From NCBI GenBank assembly GCA_029261405.1, contig JAJDBK010000011.1:124001-188000 (forward strand): 64,000 nt of DNA, in the 5' to 3' direction. This DNA comes from Nitrospinaceae bacterium (GTDB lineage Bacteria; Nitrospinota_A; UBA7883; JAJDBK01). The number at the start of each line of letters is the position of its first letter. Position 1 is the stretch's first letter. Below, piece after piece: positions 3,778-39,395 of this stretch. The notes beneath the pieces are model-generated. The model was not told the DNA's origin and did not search any database. It saw only the letters and a program-made list of their open reading frames with translations. The position numbers and the translations under genes were made by a program.

Positions 3778-5850
3778 GTGATCTCAAGATTAAAAAGGGT
3801 TTTGGCCCGAATCGTAAAAGGGGGGGAGAAACCGGAAACGCCAGCCGAAGAGCCGAACGGTTTTTTTGATGACCTTGCGTTGGCTCGAATTACCGAGGAC
3901 GACTGGATATCAAAATTCAGGGAAGGTCGATTTTTCTACACCGATATCCCGGATGAAGCGGTAGCTTCGATAAAGGGAAAATTTACCGGGCCGACAGTAA
4001 AAACCGTTGAACTCGCCGACACGATCATTGAGCATAAATTCGATCTTTTAGGTAGCGGTCAGTTTGTTCCGGTCGATCCTGACCGGCAGGCGAATGATGG
4101 ATATATACCGATCAACTGGCTCACCGATCCTGTGGAGGGTGTAATATTTCCCTCCGGGTTCCATCATAAAAAGTGGAACATGGAGACCATGCGCCCCGGC
4201 CTTGCCGACATAAAACATCCGTGGGAACTTTCGCGCTGTCAACATTTCACCGCTCTGGGGCAGGCTTACAGACTAACTGGTGAGGAAAAATACGCCAGTG
4301 AAATAGTGAACCAGATTCGCGATTTTATGGAGGCCAACCCGGTTGGTATGGGTGTCAACTGGGTCTGCACCATGGACGTTGCCATCAGGGCGGCGAATAT
4401 GGCTATCGGCCTCACCATGATCCGCTCGTGTCAGACGATCCCGGAAAAGGTATTAATGGAAACCTGCAAGGCTCTCTACGACCATGGCATTTTCATCTTC
4501 AGGAACTTTGAGAACAACTACGAAGTGACAAGCAATCACTACTTGAGCAATATTACCGGTCTTTATTATTTGGCGACGATGTTCGGAAAACTTCCGCAGG
4601 CGGCGGAGTGGAAAAAACATTGTAGAAAGTCGCTGGAGGAGGAGATAGAACTCCAGATCCTCAATGACGGGGCGGATTACGAATCTTCCGTGCCGTACCA
4701 CCGGCTTGTCACAGAGCTTTTTATGGGACCGGCGCGACTGGCGGAATTTTGCGGCGAACCTTTGTCGGAGCGTTACCTTGAGCGGTTACGTTGTATGGTC
4801 GAGTTCATGGCAGGGGTTATGCGCCCCGACAGGCTTACTCCGCAGATAGGCGACGCCGACGACGGACGACTCCATATTCTCGCAGGTTACGGTGATTATA
4901 AACCGCAGGATACACTGCACCTGTTCGGCCCGGCGGCGTTCCTGCTCGATAATAAAAGCTGGCTGTCTATGGCGGGTGAACGGGAGTTGTGGGAGGCGGC
5001 CTGGTGGGGGTACGATGTTAACGATGTCAAACCTTCAGATTCGCTTCCGCCCGATAACATCACCGCATATCGGAACGCGGGTCTCTATGTAGCGCGGCGC
5101 GGGGAAAACTATCTGCTGATTTCAAACTCCATTGTCGGCACCAAAGGTTTCGGTAACCATAAACATAACGACCAGCTCTCTTTCGAATACCATGTTGATG
5201 GATCGCCGCTCATTGTCGATCCCGGAAGTTACGTCTATACATCCGATCCGGACGCGCGGAATCTTTTCCGGAGCAATACATACCACAACACAGTAACCAT
5301 AGATGGCGCCGAGCAGAATGAAATGAACCGGGAGTGGCTCTTCCGGTTATTCGAGAAGGCCAATCCGGAAACCCTTGAGTGGGAGGCCGGGGATGAGCGG
5401 GTTAGATACCGGGGAGTTCATACAGGTTACATGGAGCTATCGTCGAAAATCACACATGAACGAACGTTTGATTACAAACCTGATTCAGGTGGTCTGTTCA
5501 TTTCTGACCGGTTGACAGGTGACGGGGCGCATACGGCCACATGGCATTTCCATCTTTCACCCGGCGTTTCGGCTAACCTTGGAAAGGGCGCGTGTCTCCT
5601 CTCGGTTGGTGGCGCGGAATACAGGATTGAGTATCCCGGAAAACTGGAGGCGAGAATATCGGACGTGTTCTACTCCCCATCTTACGGCGTTAAAATTCCG
5701 TGCAAGGCGCTCGACCTTTCATGTTATGTCGATCAGGACGAATCGTCGTCCTGGTTCTTCGCGATAGGCTCAAACGGGTGGCTGGACAATGATGAAACTA
5801 GAACCAGTGTTGAGAAAGCCAGGTCAGCAATGAACGGAACTTCCAGATGA
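3778..5850 (+). CDS. Heparinase II/III-family protein
   Basis: 690 residues from a GTG at 3778, 7 bp after the upstream stop. The N-terminal half looks like the alpha/alpha toroid of the family (HPWELSRCQHFTALGQAY, NNYEVTSNHYLSNITGLYYLA). The C-terminal beta domain carries the signature GNHKHNDQLSFEYHVDG near residue 458, then PLIVDPGSYVYTSD and FRSNTYHNTVTIDG. No signal peptide is evident, so it may act in the cytoplasm or on lipid-linked intermediates. Relatives in O-antigen and exopolysaccharide clusters are often called alginate lyase or heparinase, but their reaction is usually unproven: lyase, epimerase-like or editing roles are all possible. It overlaps the exporter permease gene by 4 bp. 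Confidence 0.85.
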   Translation: MISRLKRVLARIVKGGEKPETPAEEPNGFFDDLALARITEDDWISKFREGRFFYTDIPDEAVASIKGKFTGPTVKTVELADTIIEHKFDLLGSGQFVPVDPDRQANDGYIPINWLTDPVEGVIFPSGFHHKKWNMETMRPGLADIKHPWELSRCQHFTALGQAYRLTGEEKYASEIVNQIRDFMEANPVGMGVNWVCTMDVAIRAANMAIGLTMIRSCQTIPEKVLMETCKALYDHGIFIFRNFENNYEVTSNHYLSNITGLYYLATMFGKLPQAAEWKKHCRKSLEEEIELQILNDGADYESSVPYHRLVTELFMGPARLAEFCGEPLSERYLERLRCMVEFMAGVMRPDRLTPQIGDADDGRLHILAGYGDYKPQDTLHLFGPAAFLLDNKSWLSMAGERELWEAAWWGYDVNDVKPSDSLPPDNITAYRNAGLYVARRGENYLLISNSIVGTKGFGNHKHNDQLSFEYHVDGSPLIVDPGSYVYTSDPDARNLFRSNTYHNTVTIDGAEQNEMNREWLFRLFEKANPETLEWEAGDERVRYRGVHTGYMELSSKITHERTFDYKPDSGGLFISDRLTGDGAHTATWHFHLSPGVSANLGKGACLLSVGGAEYRIEYPGKLEARISDVFYSPSYGVKIPCKALDLSCYVDQDESSSWFFAIGSNGWLDNDETRTSVEKARSAMNGTSR

Positions 5851-6752
5851 TAGTCAGGATTCTGAAAAAAATTGTACGCTCCGTTACCGACGATACCACG
5901 AGACTGACCCTTCACAAGTGGAAACGGCTTATGACAGGGTTTGCCCGATCGCTAAAGGAGACCACCTTCGATACCACCCGGATAATGTATGAGAACCGCG
6001 ACATACTCATAGCCATCAGCCGTGTCGATCTTGCAAAACGGTATTCCGGGTCGGTATTCGGCCTGGTATGGGTCGCCCTCTATCCGGCGCTCCTGCTGTC
6101 GATATATGTCTTCGTATATATGGTGGTGTTCAAGATGCGTTTTCCCGGTATGGGGGAGTACGATTATGTACTCTTTATCTTCACCGGGCTGATCCCCTAT
6201 CTTGGATTGGCCGAAGCGCTCACCTCCGGGTCTGTTTCCGTAAAGCAGAACATCCACCTGGTAAAAAACGTCATGCTTCCGATAGAACTGATCCCGGTCA
6301 AGGCGGTGATCTTAAGCATGGTCAGCCAGGTTGTCAGCATGGTCATATTGACGCTCATGCTCGGAATTGGAGGGGTTTTTTCCTGTTACCTCTTCTGGGC
6401 GCCGGTTGTGTTTTTGTTGCAGGTAATGTTTCTTGTCGGGCTGGTATGGATACTCTCGGCTCTTGCGGTGATTATTCTTGATGTCGGATATTTCGTGAAC
6501 CTTGTTGTACTGCTACTGATGTTTATATCGCCCATAGCGTTTACACCCGACATGGTTCACGGAACCCTCAAGGTTGTGATTTATCTGAACCCGATATTTT
6601 ATATGACCGAGATGTTCAGGGGGGCCATGCTCTACGGCAGATATCCGGACGCTGAATTGATGATGGCCTACTTTATTATGTGTGTTGGAACCTACTGTGT
6701 CGGCGCCATGTTTTTCTGCAAACTCAAAGGGGTGCTGGTTGACTATGAGTGA
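5847..6752 (+). CDS. wzm: Polysaccharide ABC exporter permease (Wzm-like)
   Basis: 301 residues and an ABC-2 type permease. A cytoplasmic N-terminus is followed by the family element DLAKRYSGSVFGLVWVALYP, then about six hydrophobic helices, including FIFTGLIPYLGLAEALTSG, LVWILSALAVIILDVGYF and LVVLLLMFISPIAFTPDMV. This matches Wzm/TagG permeases that move completed, lipid-linked polysaccharide across the inner membrane. The start overlaps the heparinase stop (ATGATAG), and the 3' end overlaps the Wzt-like ATPase by 8 bp, so permease and ATPase are translationally coupled. Confidence 0.93.
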   Translation: MIVRILKKIVRSVTDDTTRLTLHKWKRLMTGFARSLKETTFDTTRIMYENRDILIAISRVDLAKRYSGSVFGLVWVALYPALLLSIYVFVYMVVFKMRFPGMGEYDYVLFIFTGLIPYLGLAEALTSGSVSVKQNIHLVKNVMLPIELIPVKAVILSMVSQVVSMVILTLMLGIGGVFSCYLFWAPVVFLLQVMFLVGLVWILSALAVIILDVGYFVNLVVLLLMFISPIAFTPDMVHGTLKVVIYLNPIFYMTEMFRGAMLYGRYPDAELMMAYFIMCVGTYCVGAMFFCKLKGVLVDYE

Positions 6753-9441
6753 TCCTGTCATCCGCGCGAGGAACCTCTCAAAAATATACCGGCTCTACAC
6801 CAAACCTCATCACCGGTTTCTCGACCTTTTCGGGCTTTTGGACAAGGCGGACGGGCTCTATACAGAACACGCGGCCTTGAGCAATGTCTCCCTTGATATC
6901 GGACGTGGAGAGAAGATCGCCATCATCGGACGGAACGGCGCAGGGAAAAGCACGTTCCTCAAAATCGTTTCCAAAGTGATAGAGCCGACATCAGGCGTGA
7001 TCGAGATTAACGAGCGGATTCACGCCCTGCTCTCCATAGGGACAGGGTTTCATCCCGATTTTACAGGCCGCGAAAATGTCTACTCCTACCTGGCCCAACT
7101 CGGCGTCACCGGGGAGGAGGCGGAGGCGCGAGTCGAAGAGATCATAGAATTCGCCGAACTCGAAGAGTATATTGACCAGCCGACAAAAACCTACTCAAGC
7201 GGTATGGGGGTGAGGCTGATGTTCTCCACATCTACTTCCATCGAGCCTGACATACTGATCCTCGACGAGGTTTTAGGAGTCGGTGACGCTTATTTCGCCA
7301 ACAAGAGTTACGAGCGCATCAACCGACTTTGCACCGAGGGGGGGACCACTCTTCTTCTGGTAACCCACGATGTCTATTCGGCGATGAAAATATGTGATCG
7401 CGTTATCTGGATCGATCAGGGGAAAGTCCTGATGGACGATGTAAGCTCCGTTGTGGTCAAGGCGTATGAAGACTCCATAAGGGAGCAGGAGGAACGCCGG
7501 TTAAGAAAAAGAAAACTGCTGAAACTTGAAGGCATGAAGGATGTCGGAAAGAGCCGGGTCGGCCATGTTTTAGTCGAGATACGGGGGAAAGGTAACAGAC
7601 CTCAGCCGGGCCTGATCCATTTTAGCCGTATATCGTACATGCTCGATGGCGAACCGGTGGAGAGCCTCCCTATAGGAGATGGGTTGTTCGATGAGACCGC
7701 TGTCTCTCATCTGGTAAAAGACGCCACGAACTGGGGCGAGTCCTCCATGTTTAACGGCAGGCTGTCACGACCGTTGTTAAACTACGGCTCCTCCTTCCAC
7801 AAAGTGGCCGGAATGTTTGTGGCCCCCGCCGAACTTTTCGATAAAGGATCGAAAGTCAAACTTGTAATAGATTATTTCATGGAAGAGAAGTCGGAGTTTA
7901 CGGTCACTATCTTCAGCGATGGGGAAGAGATCAGTCTGGGCGAACTTGCCGGTGAACCGGGCAAATGGGCCACCGGAGTTTTGCTCCATACGAAAAAGAG
8001 GGACGAGGAGATCGAAGATGGCTCTGTAGATACCGAGAGGTTGAAGGCGCAATCAAACTCCGTTAATACATCGGGTGTCTACGGCAGTGGCGCCATTGTG
8101 ATAGAAGAGGTCAAAGCTGTGGGTGTCGATGGAAAGGAGTGTTACCACTTCATCCATGGGGCGCCTCTTGAGGTCAGGGTCCGGTACAAAATAAACACTC
8201 CCGACCTGAAAGAGAGATCGCAGGTTCTGTTGGCGTTCCACAAGGATGGTGTGCAGGATGTAATGCGTGTTATCACAAGAGAACTGCTGTTTGATGCGGG
8301 CTCATCGCCGACAGGTGTCGTAACCATGAAACTCCCGAAAAACCCTCTTGCGGACGGAAATTACTCCGTAACAGTAATGCTTGCCAAAGAGGGGTATTAC
8401 GACAAGGAACAGACCATGTTCTTTTCGGTAAACCCGGATGTCTATACATGTGTCTCCCGGCTCTTTGATATTGTGGTAAGCGGTGGTGGAATCGTCGGCA
8501 GTGGCACCTCGGTCGTATCTGAAGCGGATTGGTCGATGGATGGGGAAACAGCGCCGCCGACTACCGATAGGCTGGAAATCGATTTTCCGGCTTGTGTGCA
8601 AAGAGAGTTTCCAGAATCTTTCGATGCCGCCTGGTCGTCGATAAACGACATATGGGCGACGATGAAAGACGCTGATTTCGCATCTCTGGTGGAAAAATCA
8701 CCGGAGCTTGAAGGGTATGACTGGCAGACTTATCTGAAATGCAGTGTGGCCCGTATGGTCCGGGCGGTCGATTCGTTTCATGGTTTTGGTGTCGAATCGG
8801 GTCGTCTGCTCGATATCGGCTCTTATTTCGGTAATTTCCCGTTGATGTTCGCCAGAGCGGGGTACGAGGCGCAGGCTCTCGATTCATATGACGGGTACGG
8901 CGAAAGTCTTTCACCTGCTGTAAATATCCTTAAGTCTGAAGGGGTGGGGATTCTTGATTTCAGGGAGACCGGTTACAACCTCGAAGAGATTCCTGACGAT
9001 ACCTACGACGCGGTTTCACTCATGGGGGTGATCGAACATATACCCCACACACCCCGGTTACTTCTGGAGGGGATAACAAGGGTATTAAAACCGGGCGGAG
9101 TCCTTCTGATCGACACGCCAAATATAGCGTATATCTACAACCGCCAGAAACTCTCAAAAGGTGTAAGCCCGCTTGCGTCTATAGAGTCGCAGTTTGAGTC
9201 GACCATTCCGTTTGAAGGTCATCACAGGGAATATACCGCCGACGAGATGGTCTGGATGTTAAAAAGAGTGGGGCATGTCGATATAAAAGTAACCATGTAC
9301 AACTACAGCCTCTACGGTTCGAGCGCCCTTACCGGAGTCGATCTTGAAAACTACAGGGCTATGCTCGCCGATCCGGGGCAGATGGAACTTGTCATGACCG
9401 CATCACGAAAACCTGGCCCCGATGACCAAGGCGCCGCCTGA
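6745..9441 (+). CDS. wzt: Polysaccharide ABC exporter ATPase fused to a methyltransferase (Wzt-MT)
   Basis: 898 residues from the ATG at 6745; a more upstream ATG lies inside the permease gene. Residues 1-245 are a Wzt/TagH-type ABC ATPase with Walker A GRNGAGKST (62-70), signature YSSGM (150-154) and Walker B LILDE (171-175). A central beta-rich region, about 300-610, occupies the place of the Wzt carbohydrate-binding domain. The last 220 residues are a class I methyltransferase with LLDIGSYFGNF, GVIEHIPHTPRLL and VLKPGGVLLIDTP. Typical Wzt proteins are 400-450 residues, so the fused methyltransferase is notable. It may modify the glycan end that the exporter then recognises. The stop lies within the next gene (20-bp overlap). 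Confidence 0.9.
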   Translation: MSDPVIRARNLSKIYRLYTKPHHRFLDLFGLLDKADGLYTEHAALSNVSLDIGRGEKIAIIGRNGAGKSTFLKIVSKVIEPTSGVIEINERIHALLSIGTGFHPDFTGRENVYSYLAQLGVTGEEAEARVEEIIEFAELEEYIDQPTKTYSSGMGVRLMFSTSTSIEPDILILDEVLGVGDAYFANKSYERINRLCTEGGTTLLLVTHDVYSAMKICDRVIWIDQGKVLMDDVSSVVVKAYEDSIREQEERRLRKRKLLKLEGMKDVGKSRVGHVLVEIRGKGNRPQPGLIHFSRISYMLDGEPVESLPIGDGLFDETAVSHLVKDATNWGESSMFNGRLSRPLLNYGSSFHKVAGMFVAPAELFDKGSKVKLVIDYFMEEKSEFTVTIFSDGEEISLGELAGEPGKWATGVLLHTKKRDEEIEDGSVDTERLKAQSNSVNTSGVYGSGAIVIEEVKAVGVDGKECYHFIHGAPLEVRVRYKINTPDLKERSQVLLAFHKDGVQDVMRVITRELLFDAGSSPTGVVTMKLPKNPLADGNYSVTVMLAKEGYYDKEQTMFFSVNPDVYTCVSRLFDIVVSGGGIVGSGTSVVSEADWSMDGETAPPTTDRLEIDFPACVQREFPESFDAAWSSINDIWATMKDADFASLVEKSPELEGYDWQTYLKCSVARMVRAVDSFHGFGVESGRLLDIGSYFGNFPLMFARAGYEAQALDSYDGYGESLSPAVNILKSEGVGILDFRETGYNLEEIPDDTYDAVSLMGVIEHIPHTPRLLLEGITRVLKPGGVLLIDTPNIAYIYNRQKLSKGVSPLASIESQFESTIPFEGHHREYTADEMVWMLKRVGHVDIKVTMYNYSLYGSSALTGVDLENYRAMLADPGQMELVMTASRKPGPDDQGAA

Positions 9442-35241: not shown

Positions 35242-35254
35242 TACGGAGGTGAAA

Positions 35255-35524
35255 ATGAACATCAAGTTTTCCGAGGACTTGATTCCCCTTACCGATTTAA
35301 AGGTAAACCCCGGTCGAGTCGTCAAGCAGACAACCGAAGCGCATCGCCCTGTACTTCTGACAAATCGGGGACGAGGAGTCGCCGTACTCCAGTCGGTCAC
35401 CGATTTTGAGAAGGGGGAGGAGGAACGTGATTTTATGCGTGCGGTTATCGCTGGTTTAGCCGATCTCGACAACGGCGCGGAATTGTCGCTGAAGGATGCC
35501 AGGAAGCGGCTTGGCCTTAAATAG
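35255..35524 (+). CDS. Phd/YefM-family antitoxin
   Basis: 89 residues from the ATG at 35255, 5 bp after GGAGG; the GTG at 35249 overlaps the Shine-Dalgarno and is unlikely. The N-terminal DNA-binding fold is recognisable from FSEDLIPLTDLKVNPGRVVK, then RPVLLTNRGRGVAVLQSV. The C-terminal tail (GAELSLKDARKRLGL) is the part that wraps the toxin. It neutralises the ParE/RelE-type toxin encoded 21 bp downstream and probably represses its own promoter through the palindrome at 35222-35241. Confidence 0.92.
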   Translation: MNIKFSEDLIPLTDLKVNPGRVVKQTTEAHRPVLLTNRGRGVAVLQSVTDFEKGEEERDFMRAVIAGLADLDNGAELSLKDARKRLGLK

Positions 35525-35545
35525 CAGACACAACGCACGACCCTT

Positions 35546-35848
35546 ATGGAGATAACTTTTGCTGAGTCCGCAGTCGGCGACCTTGAAGATATTCGTGATT
35601 GGTACGCCGAGCAAGGTGTGCCGGATGTCGGTCTCCGTTTTGTTTCCGAAATATTTCAACAGGTCGAACACCTTATCCGCCATCCGGAGATAGGTAGAAT
35701 TATTCCTGAATTCGGACAAGCGTTTTTGCGTGAACTGATCCACCCACCTTTTCGTGTAGTATACAAACTCGATGCGAATGGCATTCGCGTTGTTCGTGTT
35801 TGCCGGAGTGAACGGCTTCTTCGCCTTCGCGTAGATACGAAGCTGTAA
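35546..35848 (+). CDS. RelE/ParE-family toxin
   Basis: 100 residues. The fold is typical: ITFAESAVGDLEDIRDWYAE, FQQVEHLIRHPEIGRIIPEF, LRELIHPPFRVVYKLDANGI and RVCRSERLL. The helical hairpin DLEDIRDWYAEQG and the RELIHPPFRVVYK strand match ParE/RelE toxins. Whether it cuts mRNA on ribosomes or poisons gyrase cannot be told. It is co-transcribed with the antitoxin. Confidence 0.92.
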   Translation: MEITFAESAVGDLEDIRDWYAEQGVPDVGLRFVSEIFQQVEHLIRHPEIGRIIPEFGQAFLRELIHPPFRVVYKLDANGIRVVRVCRSERLLRLRVDTKL

Positions 35849-35871: not shown

Positions 35872-37188
35872 TTAGACTTTCTCCCGTTCTTCTCTTATAA
35901 CGGCTGTTTCGCCTGCTTTTGTCAGGCTGATTTTCATCATGATCGGGCCTGCGAGCTGGTTTACCGCCACCGCCGCCACAACCAGCGATGCGAGTTTCTC
36001 TCCGAAACCTGGGAACTGGCCTGAAACCATTACAGCAAAACCGAGGCTGACTCCGGCCTGGCTGATAAATCCGGGCCAGGCAAGTCTGCCGACATAACCA
36101 TCCTCGCCAGAGAGCCTGAGACCCCATATTGTGCCGAACCGTGTGCCAAGCATTCGAACAACCACAAACAGGGTCGCCAGGAACCACATCGACGACAACG
36201 CGCTAAAATCGAGTCCATGTCCCGCCAATGAGAAGAAGACCACGAATACCGGCAACGATCCGGTTTTAAGCCCTTCGATCAGTTTTTCCCCCTCTTTCGA
36301 GGCGTTCTCTATCAGGAACCCCGCCACGATGGAAGCCAACAGCGGCGCTGAATGGAAAAGCGAACAAACCTCCACCACCATAAACGTAGCGCCAAGGAGG
36401 AAAAGAGGGATATTATCGTCGGTGGCTTTCAGGTAAGCGACCACCACCATCGCTGTTATCGCTCCCACTATGAATGAGAGGCTGATCTCCGAAACGATCG
36501 CGACTATAAATCCCAGCCCCACACCATCGGCGTTTCCGACGAGAAGTTTCGCCGTGGCCAGCGCCAACCCGAAAGTCACGATTACAATGACATCCTTGAT
36601 TACGGTAACGCCGATTATGGTGTCTGCGACCGGTCCCTTTGAGCCTGTTTCGTTGATGACCGCAATGGCTGTGGCGGGAGAGTTGGCGGTGGCTATCACT
36701 CCCAGAAGAAGAGCCCCGGCGATTCCGGCTATGGTGGAGCCTGCGGATATTCCGGTAATAATCAACAACGGAATAAAGGTAAGGAATACGGGAAGAAATG
36801 CGGTAGCGCCCTGGATGATGGCGGTAACAAAAAGCGATTTCAGCCGATCCTTGAACCGGGAGATTTTCAGCTCACCCCCGGCTGAAAATGCAATAAGGGC
36901 CAAAGCCAGGTCGTCCACCAGTTTTAGTGGTATCACATCTTCACGAGTCACTATCTCAATCCCGAACGGTCCGGCCAACACTCCCGCCACGAGAAACCCG
37001 GTAATCATCGGGCCGTTTAGAAGTTTCGAGATTCTTCCCACCAGAAACGAAAAGAGCAACAGGAAACCGAGAGCCAACGCGCTATTGGCGAAAGGGGAGC
37101 TTACACCCGAATGCTCGCCCAGATCGTGGGTAAGAACCGTTACCGCAATAAGGGTTAGCAGTAGAAGAATCTTCCGAAGCAGGTTCAC
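35872..37188 (-). CDS. Cation:proton antiporter (CPA2), second of a pair
   Basis: 438 residues, about 12 hydrophobic helices and no RCK/TrkA-N domain. Family elements include GPMITGFLVAGVLAGPFGIE, LALIAFSAGGELKISRFKDR, the discontinuous-helix region GVIATANSPATAIAVINETG and the helix with the buried acidic residue, IGVTVIKDVIVIVTFGLALA. It should exchange Na+ or K+ for H+ across the inner membrane. It overlaps the other antiporter gene by 4 bp. Two adjacent, non-identical antiporter subunits suggest either a heterodimer or two related specificities. Confidence 0.88.
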   Translation of the reverse strand: MNLLRKILLLLTLIAVTVLTHDLGEHSGVSSPFANSALALGFLLLFSFLVGRISKLLNGPMITGFLVAGVLAGPFGIEIVTREDVIPLKLVDDLALALIAFSAGGELKISRFKDRLKSLFVTAIIQGATAFLPVFLTFIPLLIITGISAGSTIAGIAGALLLGVIATANSPATAIAVINETGSKGPVADTIIGVTVIKDVIVIVTFGLALATAKLLVGNADGVGLGFIVAIVSEISLSFIVGAITAMVVVAYLKATDDNIPLFLLGATFMVVEVCSLFHSAPLLASIVAGFLIENASKEGEKLIEGLKTGSLPVFVVFFSLAGHGLDFSALSSMWFLATLFVVVRMLGTRFGTIWGLRLSGEDGYVGRLAWPGFISQAGVSLGFAVMVSGQFPGFGEKLASLVVAAVAVNQLAGPIMMKISLTKAGETAVIREEREKV

Positions 37189-38396
37189 CGTTGATCCTCT
37201 GTTTTGGCCGGTGTCACGGTTTTCTGGATCAGGATCGGCGCCACTATCTCGTTTATTACTGTGGTAAGCACGATTACACCGAAGACGGCGCCAGACGTTT
37301 CACCCGGGAAGAGTATGACGTAGTTAAGCCCGATCGCCAGAGCCAGCGCCCCCTGCGCCCCCAGCGCAAGCCCCGCCAAGGGGGGCATTGTGTCGTTCTT
37401 GAGAAAGAGAGCCATGCCCGCCCTGATGGAACCGACTTTTAGAGCCAGCCTGCCGATTACCAGAATCAGGCTTACGATAAATACCGCTGGACCGGCGTAC
37501 CTCCACCACAACCCGGAAAGGATGAGCAGAATCACATAAAACGGTTTCTCCGTCGCATAAAGGAGCCGGAAAACCTGATCGTCGTGGGGCAAGGTGTTGG
37601 CCAGAACTATGCCAACCATAAGGCTCAAAAAGAGTGGCGACACGTTGATATAAAACGCCACACCCGATATAAAAACCAGGAAACCGAGAAATACGGTCAG
37701 ATTTTCTTCCCGGTTAAGTTTTTCCCTGCCGAAAAACCGGAATATACCAGCCATTCCCATCGACATGAGCAGTGAGTAGGAGAGAAATTTTATTCCACGG
37801 TCAACATCGAAGCTTTTATCATCGCCTGTAGAAAAAAAGCAGAAGACCAGACCTACCGCGATCAACGCCGGCGCCAGATCAAGGTTTGCGATAAGGGTGA
37901 GTTTTCGCAGAAGTCCGCTTTTTGAACGGTGGAACCGTGGCGCCATGACACTCAATATAGTGGGGGAGGAGATGGCGCCTGCGGCGGCCACCATCATTCC
38001 GGCCGTGATAGTTTCGCTCGACCCGATACCCAGGAACGCCACAGAAAAGAGCGCAAACATGGCAAACAGCCCCATCCCGGTAACAACAGCTTGAAAAATG
38101 GTCAGTTTTATCATCGCCGGATCGACCTTCAGCAGGTCCCTGTATCTAAGCTGTATTCCGAAGATAAGTCCGGCCCATCCCAGACCCATAGCGAGGAAAG
38201 GATTCAACTGGACAAGAAGGTCTTTTGATACGAGGTCAAAACCGAGAGGGCCGACCACAATTCCGATAAGGATGAACTCCCATCCCGTCAGAAAGATGTC
38301 ACGGAAAACCGCCGGGAGAATTTCTTTGGCGAAAGCGAGCCGTCCGCCGATGAACCCCAGGGTAACCAGCAGGATGACCGCCCAGACAGGTTCCAT
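37185..38396 (-). CDS. Cation:proton antiporter (CPA2), first of a pair
   Basis: 403 residues, about 12 hydrophobic helices (FILIGIVVGPLGFDLVSKDL, WAGLIFGIQLRYRDLLKVDP, AAAGAISSPTILSVMAPRF, LIANLDLAPALIAVGLVFCF). The conserved acidic residue is in ANLDLAP, and the short helix break in AAGAISSPT is as in CPA2 exchangers. No cytoplasmic regulatory domain is attached, so control may come from the PII-like protein encoded just upstream (13 bp). Its stop overlaps the second antiporter start by 4 bp. It differs clearly from its partner, so the pair is not a recent duplication. Confidence 0.87.
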   Translation of the reverse strand: MEPVWAVILLVTLGFIGGRLAFAKEILPAVFRDIFLTGWEFILIGIVVGPLGFDLVSKDLLVQLNPFLAMGLGWAGLIFGIQLRYRDLLKVDPAMIKLTIFQAVVTGMGLFAMFALFSVAFLGIGSSETITAGMMVAAAGAISSPTILSVMAPRFHRSKSGLLRKLTLIANLDLAPALIAVGLVFCFFSTGDDKSFDVDRGIKFLSYSLLMSMGMAGIFRFFGREKLNREENLTVFLGFLVFISGVAFYINVSPLFLSLMVGIVLANTLPHDDQVFRLLYATEKPFYVILLILSGLWWRYAGPAVFIVSLILVIGRLALKVGSIRAGMALFLKNDTMPPLAGLALGAQGALALAIGLNYVILFPGETSGAVFGVIVLTTVINEIVAPILIQKTVTPAKTEDQR

Positions 38397-38409
38397 TATC
38401 GACTATGTT

Positions 38410-38757
38410 TTACAGAACTTCAGTGGCAAGCCCCCTGACCCGGTTGACGGGCAGGGTGAAAATGATCCCGGAGGATGGTTCCGTGAAGGATGTGTAGATA
38501 TCCTCAATGATCTCTATGGCCGGATCGACGAGGTCGGCCTCCATGACAGAAAAAATAGTTACGTTCGACTCTCTTGCGCCGGTGAACATCTTTGTAAAAC
38601 CTGCGAAAATCGGGATATCCTGGGAAATGATCTTACCCATACCTTTGGTGTCGATGATGGTACAACCTGTCACGCCAATTTCGAGCAGTCCAGCGAGAAC
38701 ATCCTCCACCGCCTCTGGTTTGTTTATAACACAGATAAACAGTTCCTTATCCGACAT
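38410..38757 (-). CDS. PII-like regulatory protein
   Basis: 115 residues: KELFICVINKPEAVEDVLAG, LEIGVTGCTIIDTKGMGKII, VTIFSVMEADLVDPAIEIIE and SSGIIFTLPVNRVRGL. The beta-alpha-beta repeat with a central glycine-rich loop (DTKGMGKI) matches the PII/CutA ferredoxin-like fold used by PII-like sensors. It lacks the GlnB T-loop uridylylation tyrosine context. PII-like proteins such as SbtB bind nucleotides and regulate neighbouring membrane transporters, so it probably gates the antiporters downstream. The ligand is unknown. Confidence 0.75.
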   Translation of the reverse strand: MSDKELFICVINKPEAVEDVLAGLLEIGVTGCTIIDTKGMGKIISQDIPIFAGFTKMFTGARESNVTIFSVMEADLVDPAIEIIEDIYTSFTEPSSGIIFTLPVNRVRGLATEVL

Positions 38758-38762
38758 GAAAA

Positions 38763-39227
38763 TCAGTCGTTTTCAAGGTCGCGGATAAGTTGATACGCCT
38801 CTGCCCGGGATTTAGAGTTAATCAGTTGCTCAACGGTATCGACCTGCTTGCAGACCCGCACTATGGCCGCCAGAAGACGGAGATGGGTTCTCGGAGAACG
38901 TTCGGAGCCGATAATCATGAACACAAGGTTAACCGGCTCTCCGTCGAGAGCGTCGTACTCCACACCATCAGGTATCTGCCCCAGGACGATCAACATGTCG
39001 TCGATCTTCTCGCCGGAGGCGTGTGGAATGGCGACATGTCCGCCAATGCCTGTGGAACTCAAGGCTTCCCGTTCCAGCAGTTTGGTGACAAGAGCGTCCC
39101 GTCGGGAAGGTTCTATCCGTCCGGCCTCTATCAGGTGATCGACCATCTGCTCACAGACCTGGGCCTTATCGTCGCAAGACATGCCGACCATAGCCAGGTC
39201 TTCGGTGAGGTAGTCACAGATACGCAT
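38763..39227 (-). CDS. PTS EIIA domain protein (PtsN-like)
   Basis: 154 residues, a single EIIA-Fru/Ntr domain: LLEREALSSTGIGGHVAIPH with phospho-acceptor His69, then VNLVFMIIGSERSPRTHLRL. No sugar-specific IIB or IIC domain is nearby. Proteins of this type act as regulators. E. coli PtsN controls potassium transport, so a role controlling the ion antiporters in the same operon fits. It is the first gene of the operon, 5 bp before the PII-like gene. Confidence 0.9.
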   Translation of the reverse strand: MRICDYLTEDLAMVGMSCDDKAQVCEQMVDHLIEAGRIEPSRRDALVTKLLEREALSSTGIGGHVAIPHASGEKIDDMLIVLGQIPDGVEYDALDGEPVNLVFMIIGSERSPRTHLRLLAAIVRVCKQVDTVEQLINSKSRAEAYQLIRDLEND

Positions 39228-39310: not shown

Positions 39311-39395
39311 TGGTGCCCTGGTCCGGAGTCGAACCGGAACGGGTCTCCCCACCACCCCCTCAAGATGGCGTGTCTACCAATTCCACCACCAGGGC
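39311..39395 (-). tRNA. tRNA-Leu (GAG)
   Basis: On the - strand the 7-bp acceptor stem GCCCTGG/CCAGGGC, discriminator A and encoded CCA are present. The T arm TCCGG-TTCGACT-CCGGA, the D region AATTGGTAGACACG and a long variable arm of the leucine class are clear. The anticodon loop TTGAGGG gives GAG. It lies about 115 bp downstream of dnaE on the same strand. Confidence 0.95.

Follow-up and report, generated by a model that had tools for sequence, protein, structure and literature searches.

The window, a stretch of 64,000 nucleotides from a Nitrospinaceae bacterium (contig JAJDBK010000011.1), carries on its minus strand, from position 39227 to position 35872, four co-directional genes in the order EIIA, PII-like protein, antiporter A and antiporter B. 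The features of this segment are as follows.

38763–39227, minus strand: EIIA-Ntr-like regulator of 154 aa, the first gene of the operon (PF00359, 107.9 bits)
39021–39023, minus strand: codon for His69 of EIIA, the predicted phosphorylation site (near-invariance of H69)
38410–38757, minus strand: PII-like protein of 115 aa (PF00543, 42.7 bits; alignments; low-confidence model)
37185–38396, minus strand: antiporter A, 403 aa, a divergent CPA-fold paralogue of B (hhalign to B; NHE9B2 match)
37878–37880, minus strand: codon for Asp173 of A, the equivalent of NapA D157 (alignment)
37437–37439, minus strand: codon for Lys320 of A, the equivalent of NapA K305 (alignment)
37185–37188, minus strand: GTGA, the 4 nt shared by the A stop and the B start (sequence)
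35872–37188, minus strand: antiporter B, 438 aa, CPA2-type (PF00999, 65.4 bits; NapA match)
36592–36597, minus strand: codons for Lys198-Asp199 of B, the equivalents of NapA D156-D157 (alignment to NapA)

The intergenic gaps are 5 nt between EIIA and the PII-like gene and 13 nt between the latter and A, and A and B overlap by 4 nt. Gene calls and domain matches thus bore out the preliminary description of this segment as a compact operon encoding a PtsN-like EIIA, a PII-like protein and two antiporters. The GTGA overlap predicts translational coupling of A and B, and an identical 4-nt overlap was present in 11 other A/B pairs of our first sample and at 4 loci read later. A tRNA-Leu gene (39311–39395) and dnaE lie 5' of the operon on the same strand, and scans of the locus for promoters and terminators gave results no better than chance level. 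Immediately beyond the end of B, genes for a Phd/YefM antitoxin and a ParE toxin occupy positions 35249–35848 of the window on the plus strand, convergent with the operon.

The first protein of the operon contains a PTS_EIIA_2 domain (PF00359, 107.9 bits against a cut-off of 27), and its phospho-His motif, AIPHA (H69), is kept in 27 of 28 homologues, the sole exception being a protein of family f194 (locus L068) with Asn at the His position. Its score fell below the threshold of the PtsN equivalog model TIGR01419 (70.8 versus 138.7 bits), and contig C43 of the same genome carries an rpoN cluster that includes a further EIIA as well as an EIIA-Man; the operon protein is thus an EIIA-Ntr-like paralogue, one of two PF00359 genes in this genome of 3.27 Mb. 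The genome encodes one EI and one HPr, both in this cluster, indicating that a PTS-Ntr relay exists for phosphorylating EIIA.

The second protein matched the P-II domain above its gathering score (PF00543, 42.7 versus 25 bits); of 40 relatives, 32 matched the domain at an E-value of 0.01. Its monomer model was weak (mean pLDDT 58.5), and the Foldseek matches to that model, with E-values of about 1e-5, were all PII, GlnK or SbtB proteins. Alignment with E. coli GlnB showed that Q39, K90, R101 and R103 are replaced by I, I, G and A, respectively, and that Y51, the uridylylated Tyr of canonical PII, is replaced by K. Because the canonical ATP/2-oxoglutarate residues are absent, nucleotide sensing has no residue support. 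The GlnK of the same genome, which adjoins two amtB genes, keeps both GDGK and EY. The PII-like family has motifs of its own, SQDIPIFAGF...GxRxxN.TIF in the T-loop and EPxxGI in the B-loop, and P49, G97, DIPIFAGF and N..TI are invariant across many families. We therefore prefer to call the protein a sensor rather than a nucleotide reader, with a link to nucleotides as a possibility. The preliminary description had suggested that the operon could connect phosphoenolpyruvate (PEP) and nucleotide status to cation/proton exchange. A PEP input remains plausible in view of the conserved H69 and the presence of EI and HPr, but the nucleotide part is weakened by the replaced residues (Q39, Y51, K90, R101 and R103). 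A PstA/DarA-type, c-di-AMP-binding identity was also considered and dropped, as that family gave no match and the P-II domain matched instead. The Borrelia protein that has been published as 'PII-like' is unrelated and belongs to DUF2179.

Antiporter B matched PF00999 (Na_H_Exchanger) with 65.4 bits against a cut-off of 26.2, and among proteins of solved structure NapA is closest to it (E 3e-14); against TIGR00932 it scored 49.7, the cut-off being 238.3. Homology to NapA makes the predicted membership of B in CPA2 firm. Antiporter A gave no Pfam match on its own, PF00999 was matched by 4 of 15 A homologues, and the single antiporter match of A in the PDB was NHA2/NHE9B2 (E 0.0015). When the profiles of A and B were compared, they aligned over the full length of A with an hhalign probability of 100 and an E-value of 7e-41, at 15% identity. 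A is thus a predicted CPA2 member by profile only, and cation/proton exchange is predicted for both proteins. The earlier claim of two different CPA2 antiporters therefore stands for B through NapA, whereas for A, which has no Pfam match alone, it stands at the level of the profile. The accompanying claim that the antiporters have no RCK domains proved correct, since neither A nor B has a C-terminal RCK/TrkA domain; neither matched PF07556 (DUF1538). An AlphaFold model of A from the single sequence (mean pLDDT 47, pTM 0.22) was set aside.

Ion-site residues were mapped through the NapA alignment. In B, Lys198-Asp199 lie at the positions of NapA D156-D157 and Thr349 lies at that of K305; in A, Leu172-Asp173 and Lys320 occupy the same positions. 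The full set of a TM5 Asp-Asp and a TM10 Lys (NapA K305) is thus found in neither protein. This set is a mark of the electrogenic NapA type and not of every CPA2 member. Among about 30 B proteins that are paired with an A, none keeps Asp-Asp; the first Asp is lost in all of them, mostly to Lys and otherwise to G, S, V, A, M, I, N, T or L, and the Lys at the K305 position is missing from all except the B of the L111 pair. Unpaired B proteins, in contrast, all have Asp-Asp, and nearly all have the Lys. In the tree, A forms one clade and paired B another, each with support of 100/100, which indicates that the loss of the first Asp was a single ancient event, retained ever since, so that these counts stand for few independent events. 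The six A proteins of family f150 all carry Arg in place of the Asp and Leu in place of the Lys, and A nevertheless adjoins B in 5 of the 6 genomes, the sixth locus ending with its contig.

We then examined how widely the cluster is conserved, relying on whole-genome searches for relatives of A (an earlier contig scan with A had given a single relative). An A-like match was present in 14 of the 24 genomes of the window's phylum, and the EIIA-PII-A-B cluster was complete in 12 and split over two contigs in one more. The same order was found in four other phyla (families f111, f150, f194 and f237). In a prospective check, further phyla were searched with the A profile alone and eight new loci were read. 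The complete cluster was present at five, one of them with interrupted EIIA/PII frames, at two others PII-A-B was seen and the contig stopped short of EIIA, and at the exception, L136, A is the last gene on its contig and has no PII beside it. The conservation of the four-gene order, which the preliminary description had proposed as a check, thus held in 13 genomes of the phylum, in other phyla and at 5 of the 8 new loci. Departures from the arrangement also occur: the A/B pairs at L104, L109 and L111 have no EIIA/PII nearby, L110 has PII without EIIA, and at L105, L107 and L108 A is alone, with no B beside it. Mirror-tree correlations among the four proteins ranged from 0.56 to 0.83 when computed without a species background, and these high values show co-inheritance only.

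When the PII-like protein was used as the query against 385 genomes, 58 matches were obtained (E-values up to 1e-8), and 55 of them were examined; an EIIA gene was counted as paired when it was fused to the PII-like gene or shared its strand at a distance of up to 2.5 kb. Such pairing was seen for 38 of the 55 homologues, mostly as directly adjacent or fused genes, and in 22 independent families, of which the window's phylum counts as one. Since the 3.27 Mb of the window's genome contain two PF00359 genes, adjacency within 2.5 kb is expected by chance at about 0.3%, so the EIIA/PII linkage is far above chance. An ion transporter lies beside 33 of the 38 pairs: by our count, the A/B pair in 17, other PF00999 antiporters in 11, Mrp (MnhE, MrpF and Proton_antipo_M) in 3 and CLC-CBS in 2. 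Four pairs (L066, L071, L072 and L083) have no adjoining ion transporter, that of L071 adjoining a Ser/Thr kinase gene, and one pair is at a contig edge. The two small genes are thus found mostly beside ion transporters; the preliminary description had named the opposite, an occurrence mostly without antiporters, as an outcome that would refute its proposal. In-frame EIIA-PII fusions of 270–275 aa are encoded by five ORFs in families f37, f75 and f109, four beside CPA2 antiporters and the fifth at a contig end. These data show that the EIIA/PII pair is a module in itself and is not specific to the A/B antiporters.

Several other neighborhoods were noted in the same survey. At L115, L116 and L119, two adjacent DD-type CPA2 antiporters are followed by EIIA, PII and a gene for a protein of 1150–1200 aa with 8–10 predicted membrane spans; the one of these large proteins that was scanned, from L116, is a PAS-histidine kinase-receiver protein. 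This arrangement is another antiporter-pair version of the EIIA/PII cluster. In the genome of the window itself, another PII-like gene (contig C46, L131:3054-5268) shares the EPGxGI B-loop and lines up with a pair of DUF1538 genes, which encode paired antiporters of the UmpAB type, and with a gene for a CBS-domain protein. PII-like homologues were also found between tatC and the genes for ATP synthase I and the a-subunit (L065:1046-2784), immediately 5' of the lipid transport genes MlaE/MlaD, with no EIIA present (L078 and L082, near 5300–8200), and beside the gene for cofactor-independent phosphoglycerate mutase, whose reaction is a single step removed from PEP metabolism (L064 and L075).

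Taken together, we lean, though not strongly, toward a heterodimeric A/B antiporter under post-translational control by EIIA and the PII-like protein. The operon would encode one two-subunit cation/proton antiporter and a dedicated cytoplasmic control unit. Translational coupling would supply A and B in matched amounts for a putative A/B heterodimer, whose B subunit would hold the more conserved ion site. The PTS-Ntr relay would pass phosphate from PEP through EI and HPr to His69 of EIIA, and the phosphorylation state of EIIA, together with a small ligand on the PII-like protein, would set antiporter activity by direct contact, in the way that unphosphorylated PtsN acts on YcgO. Because they are fused in other lineages, EIIA and the PII-like protein are probably one functional unit. 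PII proteins form trimers, CPA antiporters dimers. Given this mismatch in symmetry, a plug like that of GlnK on AmtB does not fit, and the PII-like protein may act through EIIA, with which the EIIA-PII fusions would fit. What the sequences show is which genes are present, how far they are conserved and occur together, the fusions, the residue patterns and the existence of EI and HPr in the genome; heterodimerization, direct binding, the sign of the regulation, the PII ligand and K+ or Na+ as cargo are inferred. Several loci run against this reading: the A/B pairs of L104, L109 and L111, the lone A genes of L105, L107 and L108, L136, the four EIIA/PII pairs without a transporter and the Asn of L068.

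Most A proteins keep both Asp173 and Lys320 and could act alone, A occurs without an adjacent B at L105, L107 and L108, and the solved CPA homologues matched in this analysis are, to our knowledge, all homodimers; A and B might then be separate homodimers for different ions or directions that are merely co-regulated by EIIA/PII. We consider this unlikely, since the 4-nt A/B overlap is kept across phyla and Asp-Asp is lost solely in those B proteins that have A partners. The A proteins of f150 also argue against it, because they lack both key residues and still stand beside B in 5 of 6 genomes, as would be expected if A serves B. The conserved overlap, the confinement of the residue losses to paired members and the retention of A in f150 thus favor, though indirectly, the heterodimer that the preliminary description had suggested.

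EIIA and PII could also be a general signaling pair that acts on many targets or on each other, with shared expression as the only bond to the transporters of their operons. The four pairs without an adjacent ion transporter, including the one beside a Ser/Thr kinase gene, are consistent with this, as are the EIIA-less PII-like homologues near the MlaE, ATP synthase I/a and phosphoglycerate mutase genes. Shared expression alone is insufficient, however, to account for 33 of 38 pairs adjoining ion transporters of several unrelated kinds, and we regard this explanation as improbable. Least probable of all, and by our estimate very much so, is that A/B is an ordinary Kef-like potassium efflux system and the PII-like protein a degenerate remnant that binds no ligand and has no function. 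The loss of the canonical PII ligand residues would agree with this, as would the fact that in E. coli PtsN alone suffices for YcgO (PMC11808508), but the protein has an invariant motif of its own in many families, and five ORFs join it in frame to EIIA. A joint reading, which we put forward tentatively as somewhat short of an even chance for the whole, would make EIIA and the PII-like protein a widespread control module across CPA2, Mrp and CLC transporters, with PEP as the input through EIIA and a new ligand as the input through PII, and A/B an obligate heterodimer in which the Asp-Asp/Lys set has been redistributed, one subunit having become non-catalytic in one family.

PTS-Ntr has long been connected with potassium balance, and the action of PII proteins on transporters is also known. 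Unphosphorylated E. coli PtsN binds and inhibits the K+/H+ antiporter YcgO directly (PMC11808508). That system resembles ours in its EIIA of the same Pfam family, its conserved phospho-His and its cation/proton antiporter target (PMC11808508). YcgO, however, is a CPA1 protein with RCK and CorC domains contacted by PtsN, whereas A and B have no such domains, and here a single operon adds a PII-like partner and two antiporters. In PII/GlnK-AmtB and SbtB-SbtA, as here, a PII-fold protein is encoded beside a membrane transporter that is likely its target; the differences are the lost ATP/2-oxoglutarate residues and Tyr51, an antiporter in place of an ammonium or bicarbonate carrier, and the pairing of a PII trimer with a CPA dimer. 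PII-like genes of the PII-NG group lie beside CzcABC proton/metal antiporters (PMC7726332), and the likeness, as a cluster of a PII-like gene with a proton-cation antiporter, is one of neighborhood as described there. CzcABC is an RND tripartite pump, and EIIA is not mentioned in that paper (PMC7726332). UmpAB (DUF1538), a Na+(Li+,K+)/H+ antiporter likewise encoded by two homologous adjacent membrane genes, was identified as a heterodimer by co-immunoprecipitation (PMC5484666); it is a precedent for the putative A/B heterodimer, although its family is unrelated to A and B. NapA aligns with B from end to end and shares the Asp at D157. B differs from it by Lys for D156 and Thr for K305, and A by Leu-Asp with the Lys kept; in contrast to NapA and other CPA2 Na+/H+ antiporters, A and B are an adjacent pair of divergent paralogues.

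In the open literature that we searched, we found no papers joining EIIA, PII-like proteins and antiporters, nor any on PII-like genes in antiporter neighborhoods or on PII-like proteins with PtsN, and a 2026 review of PTS-Ntr does not mention PII. The occurrence of EIIA/PII beside several unrelated ion transporters suggests a general, undescribed coupling of ion traffic to metabolism. The reach of PTS-Ntr outside the proteobacteria, and its partners, have so far been poorly mapped. If our reading is true, the recurrent EIIA-PII pairing would offer a handle on how carbon and energy status is conveyed to membrane ion gradients, and the PII-like family would define a branch of PII whose ligand is new. 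A CPA heterodimer in which the ion-site residues have been reassigned would, in turn, be a natural experiment on electrogenic versus electroneutral exchange.
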